DNA from: Acidobacteriota bacterium
GTDB taxonomy: Bacteria; Acidobacteriota; Thermoanaerobaculia; Gp7-AA8
Assembly (NCBI GenBank): GCA_021781455.1
Contig: JAJXWV010000047.1
Location: forward strand, 62,001-126,000
Reading direction: 5' to 3'
Length of the DNA: 64,000 nt
The notes under the pieces were generated by a model that was not told where the DNA came from, ran no database searches, and saw only the letters and a program-made list of their open reading frames with translations. Shown piece by piece: positions 2,178 through 55,848 of the stretch. A program made the translations under genes and the position numbers. Within the stretch, counting starts at the first letter, position 1. Every line of letters starts with the position of its first letter.

Positions 2178-3101
2178 TCAGAGCGACGGGGGGATCGCCT
2201 GTGCTCTTCCCTTGGACACGTAGTCCGCCAGCGCGGCCGTCCAGTGGCGCATCGGCAGGAGGCCGAGTCGCTCCGACTCGAGGCAGCGCATCGGCGTGTA
2301 GCGCGGCCGCGGCGCGCGCATCAGCGTGCTCTCGCTGACCGGCTCGATGAAGCTCTCCGCGGAACCCACGAGCCGCGCGGCTTCCCGCGCAAACTCTTCG
2401 TACGTGCAGGTTCCGCTGTTCACGATGTGATACGTCGCCGGCCCGCCGACGCTGAGGATCTCCTGCAGGCGATGGACGAGATCGACGACGTATGTGGTGC
2501 TCGCCCAGATGTCGCGGATGGCCTTCACCCGCTCTCCGTTCCTGAGGCGCTGAGCGGCTGTGGCGAGAAAGCTCTCTTTTCCGTGTCCGAACACCCATGA
2601 CGTGCGGATGATGAAAGCGCGATCGCAGCGCTCGATGACGGCGCGTTCGCCCTCCGCTTTGGTCTTGCCGTAGACGTTCACCGGACGTGGCTCGTCGCCG
2701 ATCGTGTAGAAGTCTGACGCGGCAGCAGGCTGCTGCCGCCCCGGCCGGCTGGCAGCCGGCGCTTCGATCGCGGGACCGCGCGCGCCGTCGAAAACATAGT
2801 TCGTGCTGAAATGGACGACAGTCGCTCCGATCGACGCGGCGGCCGCGGCGATGTTCGACGGCCCGGCGACATTGACGGCGCGCGCCAGGTCAGGCCGGCT
2901 CTCGCATTCGTCCACACCGATGACGGCGCAGTTGAAGACGACCGCGGGCCGGAGCACGCGGAACACACGGCGAACGGCAGCCTCATCGACGATGTCGAGC
3001 TCGGAGTGAGAGAGCGCGATGACGTCGTCCTTACGCTCGAGTTGCGACCTCAGCTCCCTCGCCACCAGACCGGCCGCGCCGGTAATGACGGTCCGCGCCA
3101 T
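2178..3101 (-). CDS. dTDP-4-dehydrorhamnose reductase-like NAD(P)-dependent sugar reductase (RmlD family)
   Basis: This is a 307-residue extended SDR protein. GAAGLVARELRSQL (residues 8-21) is the GxxGxxG nucleotide-binding loop; FSTNYVFDG and NVYGKTKAEGE carry the Thr/Ser-Tyr-Lys catalytic set of RmlD-type enzymes (Tyr and Lys in YGKTK). The family reduces dTDP-4-keto-6-deoxysugars to dTDP-L-rhamnose or makes related sugar nucleotides in the cytoplasm. No rmlA, rmlB or rmlC is nearby, so the exact substrate is inferred only. Between VFDG and NVYG the protein carries about 15 extra residues (IEAPAASRPGRQQPAAAS), encoded by two DNA palindromes of the dispersed family (2719-2760). GGGAG lies 13 bases upstream of the ATG. 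Confidence 0.85.
   Translation of the reverse strand: MARTVITGAAGLVARELRSQLERKDDVIALSHSELDIVDEAAVRRVFRVLRPAVVFNCAVIGVDECESRPDLARAVNVAGPSNIAAAAASIGATVVHFSTNYVFDGARGPAIEAPAASRPGRQQPAAASDFYTIGDEPRPVNVYGKTKAEGERAVIERCDRAFIIRTSWVFGHGKESFLATAAQRLRNGERVKAIRDIWASTTYVVDLVHRLQEILSVGGPATYHIVNSGTCTYEEFAREAARLVGSAESFIEPVSESTLMRAPRPRYTPMRCLESERLGLLPMRHWTAALADYVSKGRAQAIPPSL
2719..2760. repeat. Two palindromic elements inserted in frame inside rmlD
   Basis: The first palindrome has GCGGCAGCA at 2719-2727, the loop ggc, and its exact reverse complement at 2731-2739. The second has GCCGGCT at 2744-2750, the loop ggc, and AGCCGGC at 2754-2760. The second matches intergenic copies with a tcc loop near 35440 and 46403. 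The insertion keeps the reading frame and falls in a loop before the conserved YGKTK motif. Confidence 0.7.
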
Positions 3102-10601: not shown

Positions 10602-10747
10602 CTCCAGACGATATCGGATTCGCGTCACCCAATGCCGATTCGCGGCGGGCGCTCTCGAGCGGATGCCTGGCACTGCCGTCGCTCAGTTGCCATGCCGGGG
10701 GACATGCCGCGGCAGACGAGGGAAAGAGGCACCGAAACGGGCAGACT

Positions 10748-10765
10748 GGAAAGCCTGCCCCACAC
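10748..10765. repeat. Dispersed half element GGAAAGCCTGCCCCACAC
   Basis: An 18-base exact copy of the sequence also found at 2152 and 35544. It lies in the spacer between the divergent FAD enzyme gene and the small gene at 10841. Confidence 0.7.
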
Positions 10766-35390: not shown

Positions 35391-35561
35391 GTAGGGACGC
35401 ACAGCAGCGCGTCCGCAGCTCCCGCTGCGGCGGGGTGCCGGCTTCCAGCCGGCCGCTCGCCAGGCATCTTGCCTGGCGGGTCTTCCGAGTCGAGGCCGGT
35501 AGCCGCGGGGCTGGAAGCCCGCCCAATTTCAAAGAGGCTGGCTGGAAAGCCTGCCCCACAC
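35391..35561. repeat. Cluster of four different dispersed palindromes
   Basis: It contains GTAGGGACGCACAGCAGCGC (35391), GTGCCGGCTTCCAGCCGGCC (35437), GCCAGGCATCTTGCCTGGC (35458) and GGAAAGCCTGCCCCACAC (35544). Each is found elsewhere in the window or has the same arm-loop-arm shape. The spacer 35235-35575, between the E1 and phosphohexomutase genes, holds no gene. Confidence 0.75.
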
Positions 35562-46394: not shown

Positions 46395-46515
46395 AGGAGT
46401 GCCGGCTTCCAGCCGGCCGGTCGCCGGCCTTCCAGGCCGGCGACTTCTTCTCCCGACAGAAACGACAGCGGCCGGGCAGGACGCCCGGCCGCAGGCGGGC
46501 GAGACGCCCGCAGTC
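46395..46515. repeat. Cluster of dispersed palindromes
   Basis: GTGCCGGCTTCCAGCCGGCC (46400), GCCGGCCTTCCAGGCCGGC (46425), GGCCGGGC-3-loop-CGCCCGGCC (about 46472-46492) and GCGGGCG-aga-CGCCCGC (46495-46511) follow one another. All have 3-4 base loops. They fill the convergent spacer between the kinase and the radical SAM gene. Confidence 0.75.
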
Positions 46516-50534: not shown

Positions 50535-50594
50535 GTGTGGGGCAGGCTTACCAGCCTGCCCTCCTCAGGACAGGCTTGAGAGGCTGTCCTACAC
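50535..50594. repeat. Two CAGGCT palindromes of the dispersed family
   Basis: GTGTGGGGCAGGCTTACC followed by AGCCTGCCC, then GGACAGGCTTGAGAGGCTGT and CCTACAC as a closing mirror of GTGTGG. It lies in the convergent spacer between the frameshifted gene and pnp. Confidence 0.75.
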
Positions 50595-55798: not shown

Positions 55799-55848
55799 TT
55801 CAGGCAAGGGAGGGCAGGCTGGAAAGCCTGCCCCACACCGCCGGGAGC

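Follow-up and report, generated by a model that had tools for sequence, protein, structure and literature searches.

We report that a dispersed palindromic DNA unit lies in frame within an RmlD-like (dTDP-4-dehydrorhamnose reductase-like) gene of an Acidobacteriota bacterium, where it lengthens a loop that has the same length in most homologues. We are highly confident that this segment is one REP/REPIN-like mobile unit, most likely spread by RAYT-type transposases, that landed in frame in a tolerant loop, probably with near-neutral consequences. Two REP families have entered this one loop in two sister species, on the comparison of one congener. The DNA analyzed was a 64,000-nucleotide stretch (the window) of contig C40 of the genome designated G000.

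Results

The host gene (positions 2178 to 3101, minus strand) encodes 307 amino acids and retains the YGKTK motif. We call it RmlD-like because its TIGR01214 score (211.8 bits) falls below the equivalog cutoff (224.05 bits) and because it belongs to a clade, with support of 100/100, that is separate from the canonical RmlD of the same genome; within this clade, the gene and its counterpart in a congener (G001) are sisters (100/99). The gene otherwise looks intact, scoring 235 bits against Pfam RmlD_sub_bind (PF04321), and alignment with solved RmlD structures extends over the sequence to either side of the insert. In an AlphaFold model, built from a shallow alignment of 3 sequences and with a mean pLDDT of 63.8, the insert forms the least confident coil (residues 102 to 136), between a strand and a helix. 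The idea that the gene simply sits beside PKS genes was rejected, as the 12 kb before the window carry other genes and AMP-binding/formyltransferase modules occur only at the far end.

Two back-to-back palindromes had been predicted at 2719 to 2760, and an inverted-repeat search recovered both of them there, each perfect. Hairpin 1, which is conserved in the family, occupies 2744 to 2760 on the minus strand (8-bp arms at 2744 to 2751 and 2753 to 2760, 1 nucleotide between; GCCGGCTGCCAGCCGGC on the coding strand), and hairpin 2, which is variable in the family, occupies 2719 to 2739 on the same strand (10-bp arms at 2719 to 2728 and 2730 to 2739, 1 nucleotide between). The flanks of other copies, together with their alignment, define a common unit consisting of a GGAG tag, conserved hairpin 1, CGG, and variable hairpin 2; thus, the two palindromes are the normal anatomy of a single unit. 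In the RmlD-like gene, this unit spans 2717 to 2765 (minus strand), its 5' tag tetranucleotide (2762 to 2765) reads GAAG rather than the GGAG of the family, the coding strand reads GAAG-CGCCGGCTGCCAGCCGGCCGG-GGCGGCAGCAGCCTGCTGCCGC, and the in-frame product is EAPAASRPGRQQPAAAS. The single-stranded segment is predicted to fold into two hairpins (z = -2.67), with 0 shuffles folding equally well. A covariance model of the unit (R1), trained on 17 other copies and thus not on this one, matched it with 54.4 bits and an E value of 6.6e-6, a value that is rough given the shortened calibration of the model, and nhmmer also matched it (1.8e-4). The gene carries a single unit and no doublet. Extra residues are indeed present, but their number had been put too low, at about 15: the unit measures 49 nucleotides (about 16 codons), and the loop exceeds its usual length of 17 residues by 20.

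Copies of the unit are dispersed throughout the genome. The relaxed pattern GCNGGCTNNNAGCCNGC matched three times in the window against an expectation of 0.01. Across the whole 4.88-Mb genome, the hairpin 1 pattern GCCGGCTNNNAGCCGGC was found at 38 places, compared with 0 for the reversed control, and the 25-mer core GRAGCGCCGGCTGCCAGCCGGCCGG was found exactly at 8 places and at 39 when up to 3 mismatches were allowed (reversed control, 0). Two intergenic copies lie on the plus strand of the window, one at 35432 to 35480 (C40:97432-97480), belonging to the GGAGTGCC/TTCC-type subfamily, and the other at 46396 to 46444 (C40:108396-108444). The second palindrome had been said to match these intergenic copies, and it does: both 7-bp arms are common to 35437 to 35453 and 46401 to 46417, and the centers are GGC versus TTC (2 mismatches in 17). 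In total, the R1 family comprises about 85 units over 58 sites, of which 27 are two-unit, REPIN-style sites; inverted pairs were seen by direct reading on C29, C35, and C38. Covariance-model matches numbered 84 in this genome, 34 in G001, 38 in G008, and few or none in other relatives. G008 represents another genus of the family; its count is close to that of the congener, yet most members of the family lack R1 units, which suggests patchy gain or loss of this REP-like system.

The VFDG-YGxxK loop was readable in 41 homologues. In 36 of them, among which is the canonical RmlD of this genome, it has 17 residues, compared with 37 and 69 residues in the RmlD-like genes of this species and the congener, respectively. 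The segment is missing from nearly all homologues, as anticipated, and the original prediction of a palindromic repeat inserted in frame is supported by the dispersed unit, the open frame, and a loop longer than that of homologues. The remaining loops in the RmlD-like clade have 3, 3, 17, 17, and 19 residues, the shortest two occurring in paralogues of two genera (L005 of G012 and L010 of G010; VLDPVNVYARTK and AVDVVNVYGQTK). Given the lengths of 3, 3, and 19 residues within this clade, the loop of this paralogue is unusually length tolerant, and the constancy seen elsewhere is relaxed. A contig search for closer relatives returned only two Acidobacteria MAGs (the G015 and G012 places) and a Paenibacillus locus.

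These observations bear on whether the segment might instead be a normal loop of the protein, with palindromes arising by chance from its G+C-rich codons. The genome is G+C rich, alanine- and arginine-rich loops are common, and the region contains many short chance inverted repeats. However, the 25-mer in the RmlD-like gene is the same as seven other copies except for one base of the tag, two of these copies lie beside a transposase gene, the control yielded 0, and each canonical RmlD that was read has the 17-residue loop. Exact genome-wide copies combined with the constant 17-residue loop rule out a chance palindrome in an ordinary loop for practical purposes, and we assign this explanation a negligible probability.

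A source of mobility is suggested by the transposase-like genes. Among 14 Y1_Tnp matches in this genome, a RAYT-like gene at C19:100388 has a copy of the GGAGCGCC unit on each side, the two being inverted and exact over 35 nucleotides; this is the subfamily that is inserted in the RmlD-like gene. For another match, at C27:56360, the copies on either side belong to the GGAGTGCC subfamily. RAYT genes were defined by their position between two inverted REPs (PMC2817692). The C19 protein matches Y1_Tnp above the cutoff. Against the NCBIfam REP-associated tyrosine transposase family (NF047646), the C19 and C27 proteins score 75 to 77 bits (74.6 bits for C19), slightly below the cutoff of 80. The earlier description of the dispersed palindromes as mobile is well founded, since the repeats are associated with transposase genes, and the inverted unit pair flanking a REP-associated tyrosine transposase-like gene would account for the unit's mobility. 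Judging from this arrangement, RAYT-type single-strand (Y1/HUH) transposases encoded in the same genome are the most likely agents of the unit's spread. A further RAYT-like gene, on C39, lies between GTAGGACAGGCTTTCCAGCCTGTCC-type repeats of a GTAG-tagged family with copies also in the window (GACAGGCTTTCCAGCCTGTC type). This second palindrome family has seven matches in the window (0.01 expected), with copies at 1955 to 1974, 10740 to 10759, 35536 to 35555, 50541 to 50560, and 55813 to 55832.

Coding status was judged in stretches around R1 matches by a codon score for which the long open reading frames of the window served as training set, and sites were scored as intragenic when both sides were coding on the same strand and in one frame. 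Four of the 58 sites are in frame inside genes, all in loops or between domains, and the rest look intergenic by codon score. Besides the RmlD-like gene, single units occur in two PKS linkers upstream on the contig of the window, one between ACP and KS domains (C40:13393-13441; L087) and one between DH and KR domains (C40:46199-46247; L098). The ACP-KS unit is read in the same frame as in the RmlD-like gene and encodes a nearly identical peptide, GAPAASRPVRRLPG, so that the peptide recurs in an unrelated protein family, as had been proposed as a check; the DH-KR unit is read in another frame. The fourth site is in priA (C10:34942-35060; L078), where a complete REPIN in the third frame adds 35 residues between RYDRFVILEER and KQQAAIDLL; it is absent from 14 relatives, the congener included. 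Another candidate, C8:17814, passed the first coding filter and was set aside, as its open reading frame starts at the repeat and looks spurious. Because one frame was required on both sides, gene-breaking insertions would appear only as sites with one strand but unequal phase on the two sides. C36:40262 and C40:162118 are two sites of this kind.

In the congener, the loop contains an in-frame inverted pair, GTAGGGCACGACTGCGCCGTGCC...GGCACGGCGCAGCCGTTCCCTGC, which is a GTAG-GGCACG REPIN of the usual layout, a family with 110 matches in G001 (control, 1 + 1) and 3 in G000. An R1 profile search of the congener's gene, bearing on whether the two species might share an ancestral R1 unit, found none (best E value on that contig, 4.2); by eye, the loop bears a weak likeness to R1, at 16 of 24 bases, with EAPAASRP against EAAAARAT. 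Even without the REPIN, the loop is longer than 17 residues. The codon score misses this site as intragenic because one REPIN arm, which contains a mismatch, was treated as flanking sequence.

Different REP families in one loop of two congeners raise the question of whether REP transposition preferentially targets this loop, or its DNA, and hit it independently in each species. None of the other sites among 20 sampled for the GTAG-GGCACG family in G001 looked intragenic, and there is a precedent in recB of two Xanthomonas species (PMC3733652). Against this, the left boundaries of the two inserts are unlike, the canonical RmlD paralogues of both genomes lack an insert, and the loop has also been deleted to 3 residues within the clade, a change better explained by relaxed constraint than by a preferred target. 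We therefore consider a hot spot rather unlikely. It is similarly doubtful that, throughout the genus, unrelated REP families have repeatedly landed in the loop of this one paralogue, which would then record REP turnover inside a coding gene and possibly reflect a true target preference. Either a loop that expanded once and then collected repeats or a loop hit twice fits the data; expansion in the ancestor of the genus, with repeats such as the GTAG REPIN of the sister species gained later, is a plausible but less certain scenario.

Discussion

The explanation that we favor is a mobile unit tolerated in a permissive loop. A nonautonomous REP/REPIN-like unit (GGAG tag, hairpin 1, and variable hairpin 2) was most likely moved by RAYT-type transposases of its own genome, and a copy inserted into a fast-evolving RmlD-like paralogue, in the loop that joins the VFDG strand to the YxxxK helix. 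The reading frame survived because the G+C-rich unit has no stop codons in its frames and adds a net length divisible by three. Once translated, the unit would contribute about 16 residues to a loop that tolerates changes in length and is probably disordered, and its effect on the protein is most likely near neutral. Alternatively, the REP-encoded peptide could have been exapted to alter the oligomerization or substrate range of the RmlD-like enzyme; long open, in-frame loops have been kept in two species, and nearly the same peptide is retained in a PKS linker. This alternative appears very unlikely, however, since the peptides at the four in-frame sites come from three different frames, the loop sequence is unconserved between the two species, and the AlphaFold model shows no structure there.

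The family resembles the REP/REPIN and RAYT systems of Pseudomonas, Stenotrophomonas, and E. coli (PMC3116915, PMC2817692, and PMC8266576) in its short palindrome with a 5' tetranucleotide, its many dispersed and mostly extragenic copies, its inverted doublets of about 110 to 120 bp, and the RAYT-like gene between inverted copies. It differs in its tag, in its two-hairpin unit with a variable second hairpin, and in its Acidobacteriota host. The refined REP definition requires a GT(A/G)G tag (PMC3686654), whereas the tag here is GGAG in the family and GAAG in the RmlD-like gene; other families in these genomes carry GTAG. We therefore use the term "REP-like," because the family behaves as REP/REPIN and strict membership fails on the tag.

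In-frame palindromes had been described in the original prediction as well known only in Rickettsia, which proved too narrow: intragenic, in-frame GTAG and CGTC REPs were published in 2013 for Opitutus terrae, Xanthomonas, Thauera, Thioalkalivibrio, and others (PMC3733652). According to that report, they are often found in replication and repair genes, their survival is ascribed to tolerant loops and linkers, and two Xanthomonas species have distinct REPs at roughly the same position of recB; it also describes Rickettsia RPE-4/6 as CGTC tagged and CGTC repeats as lacking association with a transposase gene. Like the Rickettsia RPEs, the R1 unit is palindromic DNA lying in frame within genes of unrelated families, but the tags, the one feature compared, differ (CGTC versus GGAG/GAAG). 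Like the intragenic GTAG and CGTC REPs, it occurs in frame in unrelated proteins, in tolerant loops and linkers, and in a replication/repair gene (here, priA), and different REPs lie near one site in two congeners, as in recB of Xanthomonas.

In sum, these results indicate that, in an Acidobacteriota genome, palindromes of the RAYT type have sufficient mobility to insert into genes and to be read as protein. To the known intragenic REPs, they add an Acidobacteriota host, of which the portion of PMC3733652 used here notes no intragenic case, and a GGAG-tagged family with a two-hairpin unit. The most interesting addition is the occurrence of two REP families in one loop of two sister species, which provides a comparable site for measuring how far coding genes tolerate such elements.
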